Virus record (IMG/VR): IMGVR_UViG_3300034012_002414
Span: 1-23,264 of that record
Source of the DNA: a virus
Length of the DNA: 23,264 nucleotides
Direction: 5' to 3' (one strand)
Shown here: positions 77 to 18,459 of the stretch, piece by piece
How the letters are laid out: each line of letters starts with the position of its first letter
How positions within the stretch are numbered: position 1 is the first letter of the stretch
The notes under the pieces: generated by a model
The model's database searches: none
What the model was told of the DNA's origin: nothing
What the model saw: only the letters and a program-made list of their open reading frames with translations
Translations under genes and position numbers: made by a program

Positions 77-90
77 TTATCTGATTTTAA

Positions 91-522
91 ATGGCAGCAC
101 AACGCAAGAAGCACACGGAAGCTCAACTGAGCGGTATTCGCGCATATCATCACAATAAATCATGTCCGTCGTGTAACGGCAATAAATATACAGTCGTAGA
201 AAGTCGCAAGACTTTTGATGCGACTCGAAGAAGGTACAAGTGTCACGATTGTGATTATCGTCAAACTATGTACGAGATTTCTTCAGAGAGCTTTGAAGAG
301 CTGAGGAGTCTTAGATCGAAGTTGCGTACTATTAAAGACGCACTTGCAGATTTTGATATAGTACTCATGGACGCTCCTTCGCCATGTAGCGTACCTCTTA
401 CTTACGACACTATCCCCTGTTTAGACTGTGTTCACTTAACGCCCAACGGCTGCTCTTTTGATATTCCTGAAGCACAGACGGAAGAAGCTAGAGGTTGTAA
501 TTTATTTCAGGCGATTGTCTGA
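91..522 (+). CDS. Zinc-ribbon protein with NrdR-like N-terminal domain
   Basis: A 143-residue protein. Residues 25-54 hold a C-x2-C...C-x2-C zinc ribbon (C25, C28, C51, C54) with an Arg-rich stretch (RRR at 46-48) before the second pair. This closely resembles the N-terminal zinc ribbon of the NrdR repressor of ribonucleotide reductase genes. The ATP-cone that follows in true NrdR is absent. Instead there is a helical linker and a second Cys cluster (C110, C113, C121, C136) that may bind another metal ion. DNA binding is plausible by analogy but the target is unknown. The ATG lies just after the tRNA with no visible Shine-Dalgarno. It is the first gene of a plus-strand run that continues with a glycosyltransferase. 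Confidence 0.75.
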   Translation: MAAQRKKHTEAQLSGIRAYHHNKSCPSCNGNKYTVVESRKTFDATRRRYKCHDCDYRQTMYEISSESFEELRSLRSKLRTIKDALADFDIVLMDAPSPCSVPLTYDTIPCLDCVHLTPNGCSFDIPEAQTEEARGCNLFQAIV

Positions 523-550
523 TAGTATGCTGGCATAAGCCGCGCTACAG

Positions 551-1321
551 ATGGCAGCCTCAATTCCAGTATTAGGCACTGCGATAGTTAATAATCCTTA
601 TTGGCTACACAGGCTCTTTATGAGCATCGACTATCCGGTCGACAATTTTTTTGTCATAAACAACAACGGCCGTGGGCAAATTACGGACGCGGTCGAAAAC
701 GTTCGAAGTTTGTCTAATCCGTTCGTAAAGAAAGTTCACGTCACCCATATGCCCGCAAATGTCGGGTGCTCTGGAGCCTGGAATTTAATTATTAAGTGCT
801 TCATGAAAGCACCTTACTGGGTTGTCTCAAATCATGATGTGATGTTTGAGCCCGGTTTTTTACAGGAGATGAACGCTAAGGCTCAGGATCCGGAGGTGGC
901 TACGGTTCACGGTTCTGGAGGTGGTTGGGATATTTTCCTTCTTAAGGACTGGGTTGTGAATAAATACGGTTTGTTTGACGAGAATTTATACCCTGGTTAC
1001 TGTGAAGATATGGATTATGGTATGCGTTTTATTCACGATGATTTAAAACGTGTTTTGACGTTAGATCATGATTATTACCACGGAACTAAGAAGGATTACT
1101 CAGATGGATCTCAAACATGGCGATCAGAACCAAACCTTCAGACAGCTGTTCATGTCGCACACGAGCTCAACAAACGTTATTTACACATGAAGTGGGGAGA
1201 AGCGTGGCAAGCTCATGTCGAAGGAGAGACACATAAGACACCTTTTAATGTTTCTGAACTTCCCATCGACTTTACAACTTACGATTTAGAGTTCGTTCGC
1301 CGCAAGCATTTAGGTTTCTGA
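551..1321 (+). CDS. Glycosyltransferase, GT-A fold (GT2-like)
   Basis: A 256-residue protein. It opens with a beta strand and nucleotide-sugar-binding region typical of GT2-like enzymes (residues 5-40), followed by a VGCSGAWN segment (71-78), where this family often has an N-x-G-x-x-x-A/G-x-N-type motif. At 94-96 the expected metal-binding DxD is written Asn-His-Asp. A conserved acidic patch, YCEDMDYGMR (150-159), may hold the catalytic base and acceptor site, as the ED motif does in rhamnosyl- and GlcNAc-transferases. No signal peptide or membrane segment is seen. It ends one base before the next ATG, so it is probably cotranslated with the methyltransferase-like gene. Donor and acceptor cannot be named. 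Confidence 0.8.
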   Translation: MAASIPVLGTAIVNNPYWLHRLFMSIDYPVDNFFVINNNGRGQITDAVENVRSLSNPFVKKVHVTHMPANVGCSGAWNLIIKCFMKAPYWVVSNHDVMFEPGFLQEMNAKAQDPEVATVHGSGGGWDIFLLKDWVVNKYGLFDENLYPGYCEDMDYGMRFIHDDLKRVLTLDHDYYHGTKKDYSDGSQTWRSEPNLQTAVHVAHELNKRYLHMKWGEAWQAHVEGETHKTPFNVSELPIDFTTYDLEFVRRKHLGF

Positions 1322-1322
1322 C

Positions 1323-2009
1323 ATGGACGTTCGTCACGTTATTTCTTCAATGTGTTTGTCCGTTGATGATGATCCGGCGGCACAAAACTTTTTGCACTGG
1401 CCTTTAGTGTGTAAAGCGGTTTTATACGCGTCTAAAGTTCGTTTAGATGTTGATAATCCTTTTGCGAATGCTTTCCCAGGCGACCACTATCGTCTGATTT
1501 CTGGACTGCTTTCTGTTCTTGATAATGAAGGAGGTGTTCGTAATATCGTAGATATCGGTACACACTACGGTACTGGAACACGTGTAATGCTTGACTTTGC
1601 GCCCGATGCAAAAGTCACAACATTTGACCTTACTGGTTGGGACGAGTTCCCTGTAACATATTTAACTTGTTCTGACTTTGTTAGTAATGGCGGTCGGCTC
1701 ACTCAATATTTAGAGAATCTTCAGCACGCTGATGTTTTCGAGCGACATAAACAACTGTTTATTGATGCAGATTTCATTATGTGTGATGGACCTAAAGACG
1801 GCAGCTTTGAACGTGAATTTATCAAAAAGCTATCAACACTTTCTTTCCCTAAGAAACGTCGTTTCCTGTTCTTAGACGATATTCGCTTTGAGTCTGAGAT
1901 ACCGCTGTGGCGATTGATCCAGAGCCCTAAGGTTGATCTCACCTCTTTTGGGCACTTTTCTGGTTCTGGGTTAGTTGATATCAGCGACGGTTTAGTTTTG
2001 TTTGATTGA
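1323..2009 (+). CDS. Class I SAM-dependent methyltransferase-like protein
   Basis: A 228-residue protein with a recognisable Rossmann methyltransferase core. Motif I is VDIGTHYGTGT (76-86), the SAM-binding glycine loop. An acidic strand end follows at FDLTGWD (101-107), then a DGPKDGSFE segment (155-163) and a FLFLDD strand (181-186). The arrangement resembles the Methyltransf_24 and cephalosporin-hydroxylase-like families that modify sugars or small molecules. Position directly after a glycosyltransferase suggests glycan methylation, but that is inference. The ATG overlaps the end of the previous gene's neighbourhood by design: the upstream stop is at 1319-1321 and no Shine-Dalgarno is visible, consistent with translational coupling. 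Confidence 0.7.
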   Translation: MDVRHVISSMCLSVDDDPAAQNFLHWPLVCKAVLYASKVRLDVDNPFANAFPGDHYRLISGLLSVLDNEGGVRNIVDIGTHYGTGTRVMLDFAPDAKVTTFDLTGWDEFPVTYLTCSDFVSNGGRLTQYLENLQHADVFERHKQLFIDADFIMCDGPKDGSFEREFIKKLSTLSFPKKRRFLFLDDIRFESEIPLWRLIQSPKVDLTSFGHFSGSGLVDISDGLVLFD

Positions 2010-2015
2010 GTACAA

Positions 2016-2378
2016 ATGGATAAATTTTTAGAAGAGTTTCCGTGCACAGGTTGTTCCTTGTGCTGCAAGAACTTGAGTAGTATCCACGAGGACGCTCTTA
2101 AGTTCCCTAAGGGTTCGATTGTGCGAATTGCCGCAGAGACGTTTCCCTTTAAATGGGATTCAACCGGCGCCTGTGAAAAGTTAAAAGACGACAAGTGCTC
2201 TATTTACACTGGCCGACCTTTACTGTGCAACGTGAAGGCTTTATCGCTTCTATGGGCTAGAGAGCTCAAATGTGACCCACTCGATATCTACGCTTTAACA
2301 GCTACTAGCTGTAATAATCTTATTGATGAAGCAGGCTTGGATCCTGAGTTTAAAATTAATCCAGGTCAGTTTAAGTAG
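2016..2378 (+). CDS. CxxCxxCC-family protein (YkgJ-like metal-chelating domain)
   Basis: A 120-residue protein with the signature C10-x2-C13-x2-C16-C17, followed by C53, C61 in DKCSIYTGRPLLC, and C71. This is the pattern of the YkgJ/PF03692 family, described as putative zinc- or iron-sulfur-cluster-chelating proteins. Members are often found beside modification enzymes and their biochemical role is not settled. The gene starts 6 bases after the methyltransferase-like gene and its stop directly abuts the next ATG. Two further Cys residues or none may be needed for the cluster; I cannot tell from sequence. The family assignment is firm; the function in a phage is unknown. Confidence 0.82.
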   Translation: MDKFLEEFPCTGCSLCCKNLSSIHEDALKFPKGSIVRIAAETFPFKWDSTGACEKLKDDKCSIYTGRPLLCNVKALSLLWARELKCDPLDIYALTATSCNNLIDEAGLDPEFKINPGQFK

Positions 2379-2651
2379 ATGCCGTTTTATTCGTCTTACA
2401 CCAACGGCAGTCGGTTGGTTAACAAGCTAAAGACCTTATTGGACAGCAAAAACTTGTCGTCGTTTGCGCTAAGTAAACAAGCTAACTTATCGCCTACAAC
2501 GACAAGAAAGATTTATGGCGATCCTGCTTATATACCATCACCAGATGTCTTAGAGAAACTTTGCGTAACTCTAAGTTGTGTACCTGGCGATATATTAGAT
2601 ATCCGAGGTAATATAGAAGAATCAGCCGTGGTAGTGTCCGGTGTTTTCTAA
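2379..2651 (+). CDS. XRE/Cro-type helix-turn-helix protein
   Basis: A 90-residue protein. Residues about 13-76 fit the XRE fold: a first helix (LVNKLKTLLDSKNL), then ALSKQANLSPTTTRKIYGD forming the helix-turn-helix, then VLEKLCVTLSCVPGDILDI, the typical final helix with the 'GDIL' ending. It is a DNA-binding regulator candidate, possibly acting on phage or host promoters. The ATG follows the upstream stop codon with no gap, so it is probably translationally coupled. Its last 11 bases overlap the GTG start of the following structural-type gene, which is an unusual position for a regulator. Confidence 0.85.
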   Translation: MPFYSSYTNGSRLVNKLKTLLDSKNLSSFALSKQANLSPTTTRKIYGDPAYIPSPDVLEKLCVTLSCVPGDILDIRGNIEESAVVVSGVF

Positions 2652-3138
2652 AGCCGATTACGAATTAGCTGCTCGCATTCTCGGTTTGCCCGTACCGGAG
2701 ACTCCGGCTGAACAGGCTGCAGCTACTCCTGTTACAGCCGAAGTTCTGCGTCGTTTTGGCCAAGGCCGAGCCCCTATGCCGGGGATGGAGCAAAACGGTT
2801 TTTACACTGGGGCCACGCATTCGCTTAATGGGTATCCCGATAACACGATGCCTATGCAGCACGCTCAACTGGCTTCTCGTTTACGGACTGAGCCAGAACG
2901 GCCCCATCAAGATGCTTACTTAATGGAGCTGATCCAGTCTTTAGAGCCCGATGAGTTTGAGCTCGTTATTGCACTGTTAGAACAACTGGCCGATCAAGAG
3001 GAGCAAGAATCAGATCGACTGTCTTCTCAGCGTCCGCTTGAATACGACATGCCGAACCTGGGTTCTAATTACAGTGTGTTGAACGCCCCCGCTTCGAACA
3101 GCATCGAACCTTCTCGCGCTTACCAGCCCTTAAGCTGA
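2641..3138 (+). CDS. Unknown protein, 165 aa, GTG start
   Basis: No family recognised. The N-terminal 40 residues are Ala/Pro/Glu-rich and include PVTAEVLRRFG (30-40), a motif that reappears almost unchanged in the scaffold-like protein (residues 160-170). Residues about 93-125 form an acidic helical region (MELIQSLEPDEFELVIALLEQLADQEEQE). The rest is polar and probably flexible. The GTG start overlaps the end of the HTH gene by 11 bases; I see no better in-frame start before residue 46. The TGATG junction with the next gene (3136-3140) indicates coupled translation. It is the first gene of the 2.6-5.8 kb cluster that looks structural. Confidence 0.65.
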   Translation: MFSKADYELAARILGLPVPETPAEQAAATPVTAEVLRRFGQGRAPMPGMEQNGFYTGATHSLNGYPDNTMPMQHAQLASRLRTEPERPHQDAYLMELIQSLEPDEFELVIALLEQLADQEEQESDRLSSQRPLEYDMPNLGSNYSVLNAPASNSIEPSRAYQPLS

Positions 3139-3377
3139 TGGAATTAAACGCTCGCCAACGACAACTGCGAGAGCGTGATGTCCGTAAGTTGTCTCCAGAT
3201 CTAGACGCAAATACTTTTATGCGTCTGTACCTAGAAAGTAACTTTCCGCAGACAGCGGCGTACCCCTCCGCTCTTCAAAACGAGCGTGGTGTAAGTGCTG
3301 ATAATCAACAAGATCCTATAAAATTAAGTAAGAAACCCCTAAGTGGGACTAGCTATGACAATCCTGGGGGTTATTGA
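3138..3377 (+). CDS. Unknown protein, 79 aa
   Basis: A small protein of no recognised family. The N-terminal 30 residues are strongly basic and helical (LNARQRQLRERDVRKL), and the C-terminal half is polar and disordered, ending in GTSYDNPGGY. Its ATG shares bases with the stop of the preceding gene, and it is followed after three bases by the next gene, so it sits inside a compact operon of probable virion proteins. It could be a small head or ejection component, or a chaperone of one. Confidence 0.6.
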   Translation: MELNARQRQLRERDVRKLSPDLDANTFMRLYLESNFPQTAAYPSALQNERGVSADNQQDPIKLSKKPLSGTSYDNPGGY

Positions 3378-3380
3378 TTA

Positions 3381-3902
3381 ATGGCTTCTCCTGTTCCTGC
3401 AGCTGCTATAGGTAAGTTTGGGGGCTTGACTCCTGGAGGCTTACTTCAAGAGATCCTGGGCAACCTAGCCGTTGCCGGTGGTGGGGCTCTTCTTGGAGCA
3501 GCTACCGAATCGATGGTGCCTCAAGCTCCTCAAGGGAGCTCTGGCAGCAAGTACATGATCACCTTGCAGGATGTCAAGGAGATCCAAAAGTACGTAGACA
3601 ACGAGAATTATCGCCGTAGTCTGCTCAACATGATGCCTGGCGGACAAGATCTGCCCATGCTGAACGCTGAAGAGATTATTGCTACTCGTGAAGCTGAGCT
3701 TCGCCGTTCAGCCGATGAAGCCGGTGCTCGTGAATATGCGATTGAGAGCTTGAGTGTTCCTCGCGCAGTTATCCCCGCGATGGCTAATCAAATCGCACCT
3801 AGTGCTCAAGCCACGTCTCAAGCGGCTCAGCAGTTTCTTCAAAGTTATCTGCAGCGTCCTAATATAGATCCATCATTAGCAGAAGTTGCGAGGGGCATGT
3901 AA
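3381..3902 (+). CDS. Putative internal virion/ejection protein, Gly/Ala-rich N-terminus (173 aa)
   Basis: No family recognised. Residues 5-45 are Gly/Ala/Leu-rich and hydrophobic (GKFGGLTPGGLLQEILGNLAVAGGGALLGA), compatible with a membrane-inserting segment. A central acidic helical part follows, and the C-terminal third is Gln/Ala-rich (ATSQAAQQFLQSYLQ). The same plan of a hydrophobic glycine-rich head and a helical Ala/Gln-rich body occurs in the next two genes. Small proteins of this kind in podoviruses (for example T7 gp14 or P22 gp7 class) are ejected to form a channel; this is an analogy, not homology I can show. Its stop overlaps the next ATG (TAATG at 3900-3904). Confidence 0.55.
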   Translation: MASPVPAAAIGKFGGLTPGGLLQEILGNLAVAGGGALLGAATESMVPQAPQGSSGSKYMITLQDVKEIQKYVDNENYRRSLLNMMPGGQDLPMLNAEEIIATREAELRRSADEAGAREYAIESLSVPRAVIPAMANQIAPSAQATSQAAQQFLQSYLQRPNIDPSLAEVARGM

Positions 3903-4534
3903 TGAATCCATTAGTCGGTGGTTTAGGCAAGATTGCTCTTGGTGGCCTCGCTACTGGTGGAGCGATGTATGGCCTAGAACGATTATTCGGCGGCGGCCAG
4001 GAGCAGCAAGCTAACGATCCTCTCCGGCAGCTGTCGGAGCAAGAGTATCAAAATACAATCGAGTTTCGGCGCCGAGCTCAAGAAGCTCAAATTGAAGCCG
4101 AAAAAGCACGGTGGGCACGCGAGGCCGCTGCTCGTACAGCCGGCGCTACTGAAGCTCAAACTGCTGCAATTCTTGAAGAACTTCGCGGAGACCGCGCTCT
4201 TCGCGAAAAGATCGCTCTTGCGAACTTAGATCCCCGCTTGTACGCGCAGCGTGCTGCGGTTGATCAAGCTAACTGGGAGCGTTCTCAAGAGCTGAACCGA
4301 ATCGCGGGAATGGAGCAAACCCGCGAGTTAACTCGACGTCAGATCGAAAACAGCGTGATTTCCGCGTGGCAGGGCATCACTCAAGCTCAAATTAATGCTG
4401 ATGCTCTTATCGCTCAGGGGATGATGAACCTTGCCTATTCGGCAGGTGTTCCTAATCCGAATGTTCTGCAGGCTGGCGCTAGCCTTGCAGCGCAAGGTGC
4501 CGCAGGTTTTAGCGCTCCCAAATCTCAGATTTAA
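3902..4534 (+). CDS. Putative internal virion/ejection protein, coiled-coil (210 aa)
   Basis: The first 32 residues form a hydrophobic Gly-rich segment (NPLVGGLGKIALGGLATGGA, then LFGGG). Residues about 45-140 are a long charged helix rich in Ala, Glu, Arg and Gln (QEAQIEAEKARWAREAAART and onward), a likely coiled coil. A more hydrophobic Ala-rich tail follows. It matches the architecture of its neighbours on both sides. It starts inside the stop of the preceding gene and is separated from the next by two bases. I infer a role as an internal virion protein delivered with the DNA; no catalytic motif is visible. Confidence 0.55.
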   Translation: MNPLVGGLGKIALGGLATGGAMYGLERLFGGGQEQQANDPLRQLSEQEYQNTIEFRRRAQEAQIEAEKARWAREAAARTAGATEAQTAAILEELRGDRALREKIALANLDPRLYAQRAAVDQANWERSQELNRIAGMEQTRELTRRQIENSVISAWQGITQAQINADALIAQGMMNLAYSAGVPNPNVLQAGASLAAQGAAGFSAPKSQI

Positions 4535-12506: not shown

Positions 12507-14732
12507 ATGTCCAGCTCGATTGAAACTAGGAAAAGATTCACCGAGATCTTAGAGGCGTCTCGTACTCAAGATCGGAGCAACCAGTCATCGACTATGGTTG
12601 TTCTGAGTCATTTGCAGCAGATGACCCTTTTGATGATCAAAAAGGGTCTTGCTTTTTACTGTGATCAAGACACTTTTAAGAGCCGCACTAAGTTCTTAGA
12701 AGACATTATTGCTTTAAACAAATTAGACATTCGTTTCCCTGCGATTATTCGCAACTTTTTGATCGATGGTTGCGGGTTGTTTTATTTTCGACCAGATCCA
12801 AAACTTAAATATCAGATTTATTTCTTTAATAAAAATCAATATCGTGTCTATCACGACGTAAATGGTAACGTTGAAGAGGTTGTAATTGTCTATAGCTATA
12901 AAATCAAGAACGCTAATTTAGGTTTACCTAGTAATAGTTACGGGCAGAACAAACGCTACGTTCGGCTAACCATTACAGCTGATGAAATCAGCGAAGTTGA
13001 GACTGATACTGAGCTGAGTTTTGACTTAGAGCCTGGTGCTGTCCTAACTCCGACAAAAAAGAGGCAAAACACACTTGGTTTTATCCCGGCAGTTGAGGTT
13101 TTAAACAAACCGAACGCTAGCGGTACGGAAGGTGAGGGCGAATTTGACCCATTTATGGAGCAGATCGTTCTTCACGATCAGCTGACTCGTAATATTGCGA
13201 AAAATATTGAGTTTTTTGGCAACCCGACCTTAATTAGTTCGCGCCCACGAAGCGATCTGGTCGAAGCGAACGACGCTCAGGGCAATTTCCGGCCAACAAT
13301 CAGCAGCCAATCTGGTTTTGCTGGTGTCGACAGTCCTTCGACTCGTGTCAGTGAGCCTTTTGGCGCTGGTATGGGTTCTGGTTTGCGCGTTCCGCGAATT
13401 ATCGCCAACGTCGAGCCATCGGATCGCGTGGGTTACATGACCCCGGACCCCGTTAATGGGGATATGAACCGGTATACGCTTCTTCTTCGCGAAGAAATTC
13501 GTACCGCGTTAGGTGGAGTTGACGAAATATCAATTTCTGCTGGCGCCACCGCAACAGAAATCAAAGGTTTGATGGGTCGTGCTCAAGCTACGGCTTTACG
13601 GAAGAACAAGAGTTTCCTGACTTACGGTTTTAACCGTTTGCTGGAGATGATGATTTATCACCAAGAAGTTATTTTCCGTGAGTCGTTTATTGCTGCAGCA
13701 GGGCTTAAAGAACCCAAACCTCCGACTGAAGAAACGGAAGAAAGTCTGCAGAAATATCAGACTTCTTTAGCTAAGTTTGAGTCGAAAGTTACTCAGTCTA
13801 TTCAACTTGCGCTACAGGAGAATAAAGTTCCTCCCGGAGTTATAGGGCTACCGGAAGATGGGGATCGTACTGTAACTTACAGGTATCAAGGTGATGTTTA
13901 CGAAGACACTGCCTACGACATAAACCAAAAGTCTATTGTCGTCCGTAACTTACAAGAACTCGGTGTGGATAGCATCGAAGCTCTTAAGTTCCTGTTTCCT
14001 GAAAAGACTGATTCTGAAAGAGCCGAAATGCTGAAGGGCTTCCCCTTCCGTATGGTTCAACAAACACAATCAGCAATGCAACAATTTCTGGTATTATTAA
14101 GCCAGATGTTGCAGTCTCCGCATCCTCTTGCGCCTAATCAGCCTCTTGCAGCTGATCCTAGACTGAATATCACTCCGCTCCTTTACAGGACATTCGACCA
14201 CCTCGCGGAAGAACTAACTTACTCGGGTAGCTATGAGCCAGCAGATCCAAGCTTCGACCCCGAGCCCGGTCTCCCCGGCGGCAGCCCCGGCGGTAATTTC
14301 GGACCAGGGCTCAACCGCCTACCCGCAATGGGTGGCGCAAACCTCTACCCCGGCGGTAGCTTCGGTTCCTACAGCCCAACCGCCGTCGCAGGTGGCACCG
14401 GCTTCGGTCCCTTCTACCAACAACCAGTACAACCAGTTAACGTCGCAGTCCTCCCCCAGCAATCCCTGGGAAGCAGCGATGGGTACCCTGGAACGGGTAC
14501 TGTCCCAGGTCAATTCGCAATCCCTCAACCAGGTTCCGTCGTCTCCTTACCAGACAATTTCGGAACCGGCTACTCAACTGAGCAGTCAGAATTTACAGGC
14601 CCAACCCTGGGCTTACCAGGCACCCCAGGTAGCGCAGACCTTGCCTACCAGCGTCTCACCGACCCAAACTTCCTCGCCGATTTCTACGGCCCCGCAAACG
14701 AGCGTAAGCCCCGTAACCGCCGAGGTCGTTAA
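12507..14732 (+). CDS. Portal protein with long Pro/Gly-rich C-terminal extension
   Basis: A 741-residue portal candidate. Residues about 1-570 have the helical and beta composition of a portal core, with the wing/stem-like region IKGLMGRAQATALRKNKSFL and a central EIRTALGGVDEISIS segment. The position after terminase and before scaffold and capsid supports the call. From about residue 575 the protein turns into a Pro/Gly/Ser-rich extension ending in a basic tail (ANERKPRNRRGR). This extension, from 14233 onward, overlaps the scaffold-like gene in the +1 frame. The codons of the extension are C-ending and regular (GGC, TTC, TAC, AAC), so this frame looks genuinely coding. Portal oligomers form the DNA entry channel and docking site for terminase. 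Confidence 0.78.
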   Translation: MSSSIETRKRFTEILEASRTQDRSNQSSTMVVLSHLQQMTLLMIKKGLAFYCDQDTFKSRTKFLEDIIALNKLDIRFPAIIRNFLIDGCGLFYFRPDPKLKYQIYFFNKNQYRVYHDVNGNVEEVVIVYSYKIKNANLGLPSNSYGQNKRYVRLTITADEISEVETDTELSFDLEPGAVLTPTKKRQNTLGFIPAVEVLNKPNASGTEGEGEFDPFMEQIVLHDQLTRNIAKNIEFFGNPTLISSRPRSDLVEANDAQGNFRPTISSQSGFAGVDSPSTRVSEPFGAGMGSGLRVPRIIANVEPSDRVGYMTPDPVNGDMNRYTLLLREEIRTALGGVDEISISAGATATEIKGLMGRAQATALRKNKSFLTYGFNRLLEMMIYHQEVIFRESFIAAAGLKEPKPPTEETEESLQKYQTSLAKFESKVTQSIQLALQENKVPPGVIGLPEDGDRTVTYRYQGDVYEDTAYDINQKSIVVRNLQELGVDSIEALKFLFPEKTDSERAEMLKGFPFRMVQQTQSAMQQFLVLLSQMLQSPHPLAPNQPLAADPRLNITPLLYRTFDHLAEELTYSGSYEPADPSFDPEPGLPGGSPGGNFGPGLNRLPAMGGANLYPGGSFGSYSPTAVAGGTGFGPFYQQPVQPVNVAVLPQQSLGSSDGYPGTGTVPGQFAIPQPGSVVSLPDNFGTGYSTEQSEFTGPTLGLPGTPGSADLAYQRLTDPNFLADFYGPANERKPRNRRGR

Positions 14733-15372: not shown

Positions 15373-15699
15373 TTAATTTTCGTTTTTACCTATCCGCCTT
15401 TCAATTTCTTTTTCAGCTAATCGTTCTGCGGCTGCCAGGATACGAATACCAGCGTAACCAATAATAAATGAGGTCGCTATGGCCTCATTTTTTGTAAGTT
15501 TAAATCTTTCTTCGATCGCTGGACTTACAAATGTAGCCAGCATGAAGCCAACAACAGAGGCCTTGATTAAATAAGGTATAACTTTCCTTAGCCCCCGTGG
15601 GTGCGTAAGACTTTCAGTAATTGATCCTGAGAAACAGGCTATCGATGCTTCAGGATCTTCAAAAAACACTGTAAGTGCCTTCTCAAAATGGGGCTGCAT
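15373..15699 (-). CDS. Holin-like small membrane protein
   Basis: A 108-residue protein with two hydrophobic segments: residues about 42-60 (PYLIKASVVGFMLATFVSP) and 72-90 (AIATSFIIGYAGIRILAA). They are joined by a short loop and followed by a charged C-terminus (ERLAEKEIERRIGKNEN). This resembles small class II or LydA-type phage holins that permit lysis. No endolysin is adjacent. It stands alone on the minus strand between plus-strand genes; its stop lies one base from the small acidic ORF. The start ATG has TAAGG five bases upstream. Other small membrane proteins cannot be excluded. Confidence 0.6.
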   Translation of the reverse strand: MQPHFEKALTVFFEDPEASIACFSGSITESLTHPRGLRKVIPYLIKASVVGFMLATFVSPAIEERFKLTKNEAIATSFIIGYAGIRILAAAERLAEKEIERRIGKNEN

Positions 15700-15763: not shown

Positions 15764-16567
15764 ATGGTGTATACACCGCAAACTAATTGGAAATACGATA
15801 AAAACTTATATCACCCGATTCAGTCCGGCCCTCAGCGCACTGGAGACAATTTAAATCTAACAAATACGTATTTAACAATTTCTAGCGGGTATGTAACACC
15901 TTCTGGAATTAATCAAACTTGGTACGGTGTTTTAGATGAAGGTGCTGATTTTGGCTTAATCCCTGTTGGCCCTCCGAACTTAAGCGGCTACTTCACTACT
16001 GACTGGAAGGCAGTTCCGCCGGCTCCGTCTGGTTATTGGACAAACTATGAGAACGTACTGCCCCACAGCTCTGGTTTACTAGATACATATGTAGGTTTCA
16101 GAGCGCAAGGTTTGTACCGTGTCGCAAATGCGACAGTACAGACTGCTTATGGGCCTCGACCAGGGCTGCGTAACTTCGGTACGCATATTTGGTACGGAGA
16201 ACAGATTCCTGATAATCAAAACTATGACCCGTTTAAAACACCTAGTTCTAACGACAGCAGTCTCGACGGCGGAGGAATAACCGGGGGTGGCGTAACCCAC
16301 CCTGCAACTCGCTCACCTACTCTCACCAACCCAACAAACGACACTTCAGGATCACGTGCCGCGTGGGTTTACCATTATCCGATTTATTGCCAGTCGTTTA
16401 CTGAAACTCGGTACACAGGTGTTCCTGGCCAGATGGGTATACCGGTGCGGAATAGTTATCGCGGCAAGTCACTTCGTTACGTCCCTAACTACGGTTCTGT
16501 ATACGGTGTACTTGGAGAAGGTGTGCGTAACATGGTGCGTACGTTTAGTCCTGGGACAAAGATTTAA
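15764..16567 (+). CDS. Putative structural protein, 267 aa
   Basis: No family recognised. The protein is rich in Tyr, Pro, Gly, Asn and Thr with almost no long helices, suggesting a beta-structured virion protein such as a decoration, fibre or minor capsid component. A Gly-rich linker occurs around residues 168-177 (DGGGITGGGVTHP). The ATG has GGAG upstream. The stop TAA at 16565-16567 interlocks with the stop of the antisense endonuclease gene (16564-16566), leaving no intergenic space. It lies between scaffold and capsid genes, consistent with a head role. Confidence 0.6.
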   Translation: MVYTPQTNWKYDKNLYHPIQSGPQRTGDNLNLTNTYLTISSGYVTPSGINQTWYGVLDEGADFGLIPVGPPNLSGYFTTDWKAVPPAPSGYWTNYENVLPHSSGLLDTYVGFRAQGLYRVANATVQTAYGPRPGLRNFGTHIWYGEQIPDNQNYDPFKTPSSNDSSLDGGGITGGGVTHPATRSPTLTNPTNDTSGSRAAWVYHYPIYCQSFTETRYTGVPGQMGIPVRNSYRGKSLRYVPNYGSVYGVLGEGVRNMVRTFSPGTKI

Positions 16568-17025
16568 ATGTGAGTCCAGGTGCGTCTTTGGAGGATGTTG
16601 TTAATCGATTGCCTAGAAGTATCGAGCTCCTGCGCAATTAGAGGAGCTCGATAGTACTTAGGGTGCGCCCCTTCCTGCAGAGCTCTTAGACAGAGTACTT
16701 GCTCTTCATTCAGCTTTGCTTTTGCGTTTTTCTCTCCTCGTAGGACCTCTGACGAGCTTTCTGAACGTGGTATCCAGGAAACATTTCCTGGCTCGTAATC
16801 ACCCGTATCCCCTTTCCTCGACAGAGAGGTTCCTACAGGCGCCTCACCCATGTCGTTATAAAAGTTCTCAAAACACTCTAACCACTCATTACACACCTTT
16901 ACCCCCTTGTTTCCATAGTATTTATAGTTAGCAGCGTTTTTGTTATAGCACCTTGTTTTCATGTCCATCCAGGCTTTATAGGTTTGTGTATTGGACAGAC
17001 CGTGTTTTTTATTGAAGCGAGCCAT
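16564..17025 (-). CDS. Free-standing homing endonuclease, HNH-type family
   Basis: A 153-residue protein from ATG 17025 (a GTG two codons upstream at 17031 is also possible). The N-terminal 90 residues follow the layout of phage HNH-like homing nucleases: YKAWMDMKTRCYNKNAANYKYYGNKGVKVCNEW, shown here as its landmarks YKAW, RCYN, YYGNKG and CNEW. A degenerate core LSRKGDTGDYEPGNVSWI replaces the usual DR-x-D...N motif. Residues about 110-150 form a helix-turn-helix (LIAQELDTSRQSINNILQ), the usual DNA-binding tail. The gene is antisense to its neighbours and sits just upstream of a group I intron in the capsid gene, outside the intron. It may cut intron-less capsid alleles. Confidence 0.8.
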   Translation of the reverse strand: MARFNKKHGLSNTQTYKAWMDMKTRCYNKNAANYKYYGNKGVKVCNEWLECFENFYNDMGEAPVGTSLSRKGDTGDYEPGNVSWIPRSESSSEVLRGEKNAKAKLNEEQVLCLRALQEGAHPKYYRAPLIAQELDTSRQSINNILQRRTWTHI

Positions 17026-17110
17026 AACCACTAAGACTGCGACAACACTCTAGCCCACAGGAGTCCTTAAGGTTTATATTTGAGAAGTACTTTCTCCTCG
17101 GAACTTATCG

Positions 17111-18459
17111 ATGTTTATCGATAGCTGAATGCTCAGATTGTCGCCTAGTTAAGCAATTAACTAGTGAAAATCGGGTGAATTCAGGGAAGCCCTAACGTAG
17201 AGACGAGGGTAATCCTGAGCGAAGCCAAAGGTACACCTTTGGAACGTGCAGAGACTACCGGAGAGGTTTAGCCCTCTTAATAACCGGCTAGAGCGCCCGA
17301 CACCCCACGTGGGTGAAGAGATAGTCCAGACCTCGGGGAAACCTGAGACAATCTGAATGACTTTCCGAAGATTTTAGGTGCGGAGCTGTACCGTCCTCAT
17401 CCGGCGTATATCGTCGAGATGGCGGCTGAGCCCGTGGTTGTTCACGACTTCTCGAAACAACCCGGCCAGACTGTGCAGCTGGACCGTTACCGCTTCTTCG
17501 GTAATCCTGGCTCTAAGGAATCCCGCGAGCGTACTGCTGAGCAGACCATTGGTACTGCCAACAGCCGCAATATCGTGAAGGATAAGGTGCTGGTGACTCT
17601 TCGCGAGTACACCGGTCCTGCTGACCCGAGTGATCCCACTCAGCCCAGCACCTTCAAGATTGCGCGTGAGACCCTGATTACCGCCCAGCGTCTGCTGCTG
17701 GACACCGGTAACCTCACCACCTTCCACCAATCCATCGGCAGCCTGACTCTGCTCGACGACTATCGTCGTTGGCGCGACCGGGTGTTCATCAACGAACTTC
17801 TGAAGGCTGTTTCCAAGGGTCAGGCTTCTGACACCCAAGGCGGTTACTACTTCCCTGGTGATCTCGCCACCGGTGCTCTGACCTACACCAACGCCGAGCA
17901 AGCTAAGTTCGACGTTAAGGATGACCTGCTGCGCGTGGTGAAGAGCCTGCGTAAGCGGAACACTCCTACCTTCCAAGATGGTTTCTATCGCTGCGTTTGC
18001 GATCCGACCTTCCTGATGCACCTGCGTCAGAACAGCGACTTCCGTGAAGTTGCTCGTTATCCTGGCAACGGGCAGATCAACCCCCTCATGTCCGGTATGC
18101 AGCCCAACGCTGCACTGTACATGGGTCAAGGCTTCGGTCAGGCTACCTTCGTGGCCGGCGAGCCGATCATGCCCACCGGCTTCGTGTTTGAAGGCGTGCG
18201 CTTCTTCGAAAGCACCAACATGCCTACTCAAACTCAGAGCGCGACCATCGCCTCCAGCACCGCTAACTACAACGCTGCTGTCGGTATCTTCTTCGGTCCT
18301 CAGGCCGTTGGTGTTGGCATCGGTGGCAACAATGCCCAGGTGCTCCTCAACAACAACGACGATTTCAGCCGCTTTATCATGATGATTTGGAGCCTGTACG
18401 CAGGTTTCGAACTCCTGAACGCTGACTTCGTCACCGTTGGTTACTCTTTCGACGCTTGA
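17111..18459 (+). CDS. Major capsid protein, split by a group I intron (join 17111..17122, 17350..18459)
   Basis: The long frame from 17350 to 18459 has no adequate start: the reading MAAEP at 17419 is preceded in frame by LNDFPKILGAELYRPHPAY, which looks coding, and the frame closes at a stop at 17344-17346. Joining ATG TTT ATC GAT (17111-17122) to AAT at 17350 gives MFIDNLNDFPKILG and a 373-residue product. The protein is helical then beta-rich, with a VCDPTFLMHLRQ strand and a late EGVRFFEST-GIFFGPQAVGVGIG region, resembling HK97-fold coats of the N4gp56/P22 kind. C-ending codons dominate, as in a very highly expressed gene. A possible GGAA Shine-Dalgarno lies at 17100-17103. Family assignment is by resemblance; the split is argued from RNA structure. 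Confidence 0.75.
17123..17349 (+). ncRNA. Group I self-splicing intron (IA-like), in the capsid gene
   Basis: The group I core can be drawn completely. P1: 17119-17122 with 17140-17143, plus a stem 17125-17128/17133-17136. P2: 17146-17152/17157-17163 with a GCAA loop. P3: 17171-17176/17295-17300. P4: 17181-17185/17214-17218. P5: 17189-17193/17206-17210. P6a: 17225-17231/17236-17242. P7: 17253-17257/17322-17326, with an extra hairpin pair (17262-17266/17273-17277) typical of IA introns. P8: 17301-17305/17311-17315. P9: 17332-17337/17342-17347 with a GAAA loop. The guide CAGATT (17134-17139) pairs with the start of exon 2 (AATCTG, 17350-17355) as P10. It carries no ORF. Exact ends are uncertain by two bases (17121-17347 is the alternative). 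Confidence 0.88.

Follow-up and report, generated by a model that had tools for sequence, protein, structure and literature searches.

The major capsid gene (mcp) of the phage described here is interrupted after its fourth codon by a group I intron that, by sequence comparison, is genuine, well conserved and mobile. Elements of this kind are known; the place is unusual and the setting rich. Taking intron identity, splice sites and splicing together, we put the probability of this reading at about 0.92. The source is a virus record of 23,264 bases, IMG/VR IMGVR_UViG_3300034012_002414. This whole stretch is called the window, and all coordinates are window positions. The gene is laid out as follows.

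17111–17122, plus strand: exon 1 of mcp, ATG TTT ATC GAT (M-F-I-D), as in FID-NDFPKILG of intron-less relatives; final base U, as group I requires.
17123–17355, plus strand: predicted group I intron, 233 nt, ORF-less; ends in G at 17355 and has an in-frame UGA stop, 17126–17128; based on RF00028, covariation and the in-frame stop.
17356–18459, plus strand: exon 2 of mcp, 367 codons and the stop; based on phrog_1357 and the S-EIV1 homologue.

Identity of the Gene and Placement of the Exons

Judged by its capsid protein, the phage is related to the cyanophage S-EIV1 (a cyanobacterial virus), and by the same comparisons the interrupted gene is the major capsid gene. Its product is 68.5% identical to a region of S-EIV1, with 99% of the query covered, and in a search of 50,697 phage records at E 1e-5 S-EIV1 was the sole record matched by mcp. 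The profile match is to phrog_1357, major head protein, at E 9.9e-24; an N4-gp56 capsid model (30.1 bits, cut-off 60) and Pfam Phage_capsid_3 both scored under their cut-offs. In the S-EIV1 record (KJ410740.1, locus L081, positions 60784–62010), the annotation has two hypothetical proteins in place of the mcp frame, the first on the opposite strand and the second limited to the C-terminal part, an example of how gene callers can misread such genes. A record-wide RF00028 search found no intron in S-EIV1. Elsewhere in the window, a holin-like ORF lies shortly upstream of the capsid region (15373–15699, minus strand; phrog_2359, E 8e-07), and there is a tRNA gene at 4–76 (RF00005, 54.6 bits).

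An earlier reading of the window, made from the sequence alone, had proposed a group I intron after codon 4 and named a covariance-model search as a check. By cmscan, RF00028 matches at 17106–17348 over the whole model (1–253 of 253) with 87.6 bits and E 2e-21, the gathering score being 50, which bears the proposal out. The 5' splice site is marked by U17122, which pairs with G17140, and the last base of the intron is G17355.

The exons are placed by the relatives. Among the 80 nearest IMG/VR mcp loci, four carry the intron (L001, L003, L004 and L017). In 74 of the other 76, an M, L or V start codon is followed by FID-NDFPKILG; the intron-less L044 reads FID-NNFPKILG, the intron-less L018 reads MFID-NDFPK, and the N-terminus of S-EIV1 reads VFID-TDFPKILG. 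Of a further 93 intron-less loci, 72 start with FID and 21 with another F-x-D form, mostly FLD. Since the intron-less relatives run from F-I/L-D directly into NDFPKILG, exon 1 is taken as 17111–17122 and exon 2 as starting at 17356. This is the first exon that the sequence-only reading had given, 12 bases encoding M-F-I-D, and in the alignment of capsid N-termini with intron-less relatives no locus seen starts at MAAEP without the NDFPKILG part. That reading also had the right end coordinate for the intron, 17355, but it began exon 2 at the AAT at 17350, six bases off by the relatives and the terminal G. Joining the exons gives a capsid protein of 371 residues, two fewer than the 373 it had counted.

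Unspliced RNA read from the normal start encodes M-F-I-D-S-stop, and because of this in-frame stop, splicing would be needed for normal capsid synthesis. The earlier claim that neither half has a usable start overlooked an in-frame ATG inside exon 2 at 17419 (346 codons). The residues upstream of it are conserved at the protein level in the relatives and in S-EIV1, which carries VFIDTDFPKILGAELYRPH in that part; the true start of mcp is thus most likely the upstream one, and ATG 17419 was rejected.

Intron Types and the Upstream Endonuclease Gene

Immediately upstream of mcp lies a gene that the sequence-only reading had left unconnected to the intron; the invasion of the site in many related phages was also beyond its view.

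16564–17025, minus strand: free-standing gene for a predicted HNH-type endonuclease, 153 aa from ATG 17025 (alternative GTG start 17031); based on phrog_3377.
17026–17110, no strand: 85-bp stretch between the endonuclease gene and the mcp start, part of a possible recombination tract; based on identity profiles.

The protein matches profiles phrog_3377 (E 1.1e-32) and phrog_374 (E 8.3e-30), with no Pfam family above cut-off, no NCBIfam match and no PDB sequence match. Its reading frame is intact, with dN 0.090 and dS 1.24 between the window and L017, in a set (L062 left out) in which dS is saturated in 6 of 10 pairs.

Introns at the codon-4 site fall into three types. From 218 sequence-distinct mcp loci, with duplicates of one contig removed and with enrichment for introns because one scan sought them, 83 carry an intron at this site. 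Two are of type A, the window's type, 54 are type B with an inner ORF, 10 are short type B, 13 are type B cut by the contig end, and four are type C. The type B introns of related phages have the same insertion site and the same RNA core as the window intron, but they are mostly 821–827 nt long with an antisense ORF inside, whereas the window intron has 233 nt and no ORF. All 79 of the type B introns of about 821–827 nt, duplicates included, have an antisense ORF of 181–192 aa, located 5' of the core. The one such ORF tested, from the 826-nt intron of L087, matches HNH (phrog_59, E 4.5e-26). Homology of the window HNH protein to the type B inner ORFs was rejected, as blastp at E 10 gave no match between them.

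A scan for the intron-type 3' junction gave at least 120 stretches. When an exact match to the junction pattern without its leading G was demanded, 18 had the intron and 62 did not among the 80 matches listed, from which roughly one contig in five would carry it. RF00028 was above cut-off in 23 of 36 chosen records searched over their whole length. Ten of 11 records that are intron-less at the codon-4 site gave no RF00028 match and one gave a weak match of 18.9 bits; the record of L125, where the contig end truncates the intron, gave none.

Every one of the six type A contigs found (the window, L001, L003, L004, L017 and L085, in two lineages) has the HNH gene at this position upstream of mcp, so each has an ORF-less intron and an adjacent free-standing endonuclease gene. 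This is the arrangement of collaborative homing, in which, as described in the review PMC3984707, alleles that lack the intron are cut by a free-standing endonuclease, while a genome with the intron is protected by it. Here, the HNH enzyme would most likely cut intron-less mcp alleles at or near the codon-4 junction, repair of the break would copy the HNH gene, the leader and the intron into a co-infecting relative, and the intron would block the cut site in its own genome. Sequence comparison itself shows the identity, the splice sites and the conserved structure of the intron, its mobility by presence and absence across the phage group, and the position of the HNH gene with its link to junction alleles. 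We infer for the window the actual splicing, the cutting and the cut position, and we lean, at slightly better than even odds, towards collaborative homing of the window intron with the upstream HNH gene.

The strongest alternative, to which we give somewhat less than an even chance, accepts the group I intron but takes the HNH gene to be an unrelated free-standing mobile gene, with the intron spread by general recombination, by endonuclease-bearing intron relatives or by reverse splicing. It would account for the four distinct type C loci, which have an intron at the same site without a window-type HNH gene nearby and from which the gene appears dispensable for intron persistence, and for the different antisense ORF held by most introns at the site (type B). 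It would also suit the HNH gene before mcp in five intron-less contigs (L011, L013, L014, L020 and L062). Against it, besides the six of six type A contigs, these intron-less carriers (four distinct sequences) have one rare junction allele in common, ATCGAC-AAC, as would be expected under collaborative homing. Of 51 distinct intron-less loci of the same capsid clade without the HNH gene, 2 have that allele and 36 have ATCGAT-AAT, which flanks the window's intron. The leaders soften this point, since carrier-like leaders also exist without the gene: compared with L011, identities are 0.93 in L010 and 0.88 in L002 and L006, and L010, L002, L006 and L009 together span 0.85–0.93, all in loci without an HNH gene before mcp. 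Given these leaders and the two loci that have the allele without the gene, ATCGAC-AAC may be inherited rather than selected.

Also against an unrelated gene is a local peak of identity at the leader, intron and junction. The parts most alike between the window and L017 are the leader (0.90), the intron (0.957) and the first 60 bases of exon 2 (0.95), compared with 0.60–0.68 for the leader and 0.78–0.85 for those 60 bases in four intron-less relatives. In the gene after mcp, too, the window and L017 are closer to each other (0.91) than to intron-less loci (0.82–0.86), a pattern not expected from a purely local exchange. In a comparison of 4 carriers with 12 hand-picked non-carriers, the HNH carriers L013 and L011 share every one of the 40 bases leading to the junction. 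The tree nevertheless places L013 with L020, L019 and L025 (98%), and over those 40 bases L013 and the pair L019 and L025 are just 55% alike. The identity peak and the L013/L011 match would fit break repair near the junction. Of 29 relatives of the endonuclease, 9 are in contigs already named and 20 are weaker (34–52% identity) in other contigs. The independent lineages behind the association are few, two with the intron and about three without.

Mobility at the Codon-4 Site

On an exon-2 tree (FastTree, 211 rows), at least 29 changes in intron presence are needed, of which starred branches force 20; the shuffled mean is 62. The tree is unrooted, so that gain is not separable from loss, but this scattered presence points to a mobile element. 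L017, with the intron, and L018, without it, are sisters with 99% support.

The bases around the site also differ between alleles. With 13 intron loci that lack a visible 5' site set aside, GAT precedes the site in 70 of 70 intron alleles versus 109 of 135 intron-less ones (Fisher p 1e-5, kinship ignored). In the larger capsid clade (the MAVEP type), NTT-GAT-AAC is found in 63 of 63 intron alleles and 44 of 63 intron-less ones (p 8e-7, kinship ignored). By these counts the silent exon bases follow the guide of the intron, a pattern that co-conversion by homing would equally produce.

An old intron inherited vertically with repeated loss and with no present mobility is an improbable reading. 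The intron families do follow the capsid clades, A and C being in one and B in the other, and the unrooted tree leaves loss on an equal footing with gain. The number of changes on the exon tree, the intron-less sisters of intron loci, the identity peak around the intron and the antisense ORF kept in every type B intron of about 821–827 nt all speak instead for mobility.

RNA Structure and Splicing

The helices were located by eye and with a script, P1 being read by eye. Their positions, all on the plus strand, are as follows.

17119–17143: P1, exon CGAU 17119–17122 with guide GUCG 17140–17143, U.G at the splice site; read from the sequence; from one intron family to another, guide and exon change in step.
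17145–17164: P2 hairpin, GCAA loop; 94.9% of cells paired, two-sided changes in 7 of 8 pairs.
17171–17300: P3, 17171–17177 with 17294–17300; covariation alignment.
17181–17186 with 17213–17218: P4, enclosed by P3; covariation alignment.
17190–17193 with 17206–17209: P5, enclosed by P3; covariation alignment.
17219–17221 with 17245–17247: P6, and 17225–17231 with 17236–17242: P6a, both enclosed by P3; covariation alignment.
17253–17326: P7, 17253–17257 with 17322–17326; invariant.
17258–17287: P7.1/7.2 insertion, 30 nt, between P7 and the 3' strand of P3.
17301–17305 with 17311–17315: P8.
17329–17353: P9.0, 17329–17330 with 17352–17353, double compensation; P9, 17332–17337 with 17342–17347, GAAA loop.
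17137–17358: P10, guide AUU 17137–17139 with exon 2 AAU 17356–17358; GUU/AAC in L017 and L085.

The sequence-only reading had paired a complete P1–P9 core with GNRA loops on P2 and P9, a P3/P7 core and an extra P7 hairpin. Each of these is present, the extension of P7 being IA-like by its sequence. Covariation was examined over 65 pairs in 22 introns of the codon-4 site (alignment A1), with P1 left out. In these, 93.3% of cells are paired, versus 27–43% when the partners are slid. Two-sided changes occur in 28 of the 65 pairs, with a shuffled mean of 11.3 and none of 500 shuffles as high, and the covariation score is 0.199 versus 0.095 shuffled. The only covariation measure not clearly above the shuffles is the number of further pair types (45 versus 40.2, with 19 of 500 as high). 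Single helices show the changes directly: P9.0 is GA/UC in the window and CC/GG in most relatives, and the third P6 pair alternates between G-C and C-G. P10 is only 3 bp in the window and 2 bp in two type C rows, and from AUU/AAU in the window versus GUU/AAC in L085, exon and intron change together. P3 and P7 are paired in 100% of cells in the 22 sequences, with two-sided changes in 2 of the 7 P3 pairs. P4 and P7 are invariant across the 22 introns, and P7 for that reason gives no covariation test. In this alignment the inner P7.2 helix pairs in just 50% of cells, and neither it nor the innermost P9 pair is kept across families.

With this structure, the guide GUCG would pair with exon 1 CGAU in P1, and an exogenous G would attack after U17122. 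Exon 1 would then attack after G17355, with P10 (AUU/AAU) holding exon 2, and the product would be the 371-residue capsid protein. From the sequence, we regard self-splicing of the capsid intron as highly probable. The splice site is 12 bases after the first base of the AUG. An initiating ribosome, from the size of its footprint, should cover P1, and splicing and initiation on the same molecule would thus probably be mutually exclusive.

Two further readings of the intron find little room. A decayed intron that no longer splices, with the capsid made from the internal ATG at 17419, has that in-frame ATG and its 346 codons in its favour, but the core helices are intact and co-varying, the splice-site bases are kept in two lineages, and relatives as well as S-EIV1 conserve the part of the protein before 17419; we think it very unlikely. 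Weaker still, and rejected on the relatives' sequences and P9.0, is an exon 2 beginning at 17350 and adding N-L (373 residues): AAUCUG (17350–17355) is indeed fully complementary to CAGAUU (17134–17139) beside the guide, but the intron would end in C (base 17349), intron-less relatives lack the N-L residues, L017 and L085 read Y-L at that position, and 17352–17353 are occupied by P9.0 with its double compensation.

There is also a start-codon hairpin of mcp, from −12 to +19 (window 17099–17129), in intron-less relatives of the window's capsid clade. Its mean z is −1.9 over 31 distinct intron-less sequences, 27 of which are below −1, and it is maintained across ATG and TTG starts with differing stems. 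It is absent in the other capsid clade (mean z −0.17, 32 sequences). The intron site falls on its 3' arm.

The Capsid Gene as an Intron Hot Spot

The unexpected part is that, from the alignments of relatives, mcp is an intron hot spot, with about nine sites and as many as six introns in a single relative. The sites follow codons 4, 18, about 30, about 35, 48, 88, 107, 138 and 145, those from codon 30 to 35 being less exactly placed. In L114, mcp has four introns (347, 291, 248 and 976 nt), and joining the exons gives an open frame of 371 codons; that record has four RF00028 matches, two of them above cut-off. L190 (reverse strand, exons from 87 to 4045) has five complete mcp introns and the last 86 bases of a codon-4 intron at the contig end. 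Its joined exons make an open frame to the stop, and all five complete introns have an RF00028 match, two above and three below cut-off. Two of the L190 introns have long ORFs, one of them antisense, carrying what we take to be LAGLIDADG-like motifs. The same record (G011) has another group I intron match of 89 bits at 13213–13454, far from mcp.

Further interruptions, many near 900–1000 nt, follow codons about 31–36, 48, 88 and 107 in L114, L187 (whose boundary near codon 31–33 is uncertain), L086, L092, L145, L194, L096, L139, L154, L170, L188, L256 and L321. In the splice-aware alignment on which the survey draws, the alignments of L194 and L195 were left out, and the introns of L190 beyond about codon 145 were replaced by hand-set exons. 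Apparent 150-base introns near codons 183–194 in eight loci were rejected as artefacts of a variable-length loop because their length equals the minimum allowed. In the literature searched, we recognised no phage capsid gene with several group I introns, and a limited literature search found no report of introns in S-EIV1-like capsid genes.

Relation to Known Systems

Phage capsid introns and collaborative homing are both already known. The mycobacteriophage LittleE resembles the window in having an intron in its major capsid gene, documented by RT-PCR and N-terminal sequencing and called "most likely a group I" in PMC3706429, which also cites a capsid intron in the lactococcal phage Tuc2009. 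It differs in the length of its intron, about 819 bp, in the putative endonuclease gene that this intron contains, and in belonging to a different phage group. The closer parallel for homing is the group I intron in psbA of S-PM2 with the free-standing F-CphI, where, as described in PMC6083498, the enzyme cuts intron-less alleles and the intron blocks self-cutting. A DNA search with the window intron matched 39 records, S-PM2 psbA among them at E 3e-7, with 68.3% identity across 62% of the query; a few of the other records had better E-values. Like the window, S-PM2 is a case of a cyanophage group I intron with an adjacent free-standing endonuclease gene. In contrast to the window, its intron lies in psbA and not in a capsid gene, its enzyme is of the Endo VII type rather than HNH, and its cutting is proven where that of the window enzyme is presumed. 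For several introns in one capsid gene, there is Faustovirus E12, a giant virus of amoebae, with 12 introns, five group I and seven spliceosome-like, according to PMC6247863; the likeness concerns the multi-intron L114 and L190 and not the single intron of the window. The available text of a paper on bastillevirus introns (PMC11878797) makes no mention of capsid.

Since capsid protein is needed in large amounts and the site is 12 bases after the first base of the AUG, an intron here is a strong test of how well such a gene tolerates a ribozyme. One view, which we offer only tentatively and with the odds against it, is that intron and endonuclease make up a weapon-and-shield pair in which the enzyme cuts the mcp start of co-infecting relatives, the owner being protected by the intron or by a silent junction allele. 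That contest would have made mcp an intron trap, with virion production waiting on splicing. One phage group holds alleles with the intron alone, with an inner ORF, with an outer endonuclease gene, and intron-less with or without that gene, which makes the steps of homing directly comparable.
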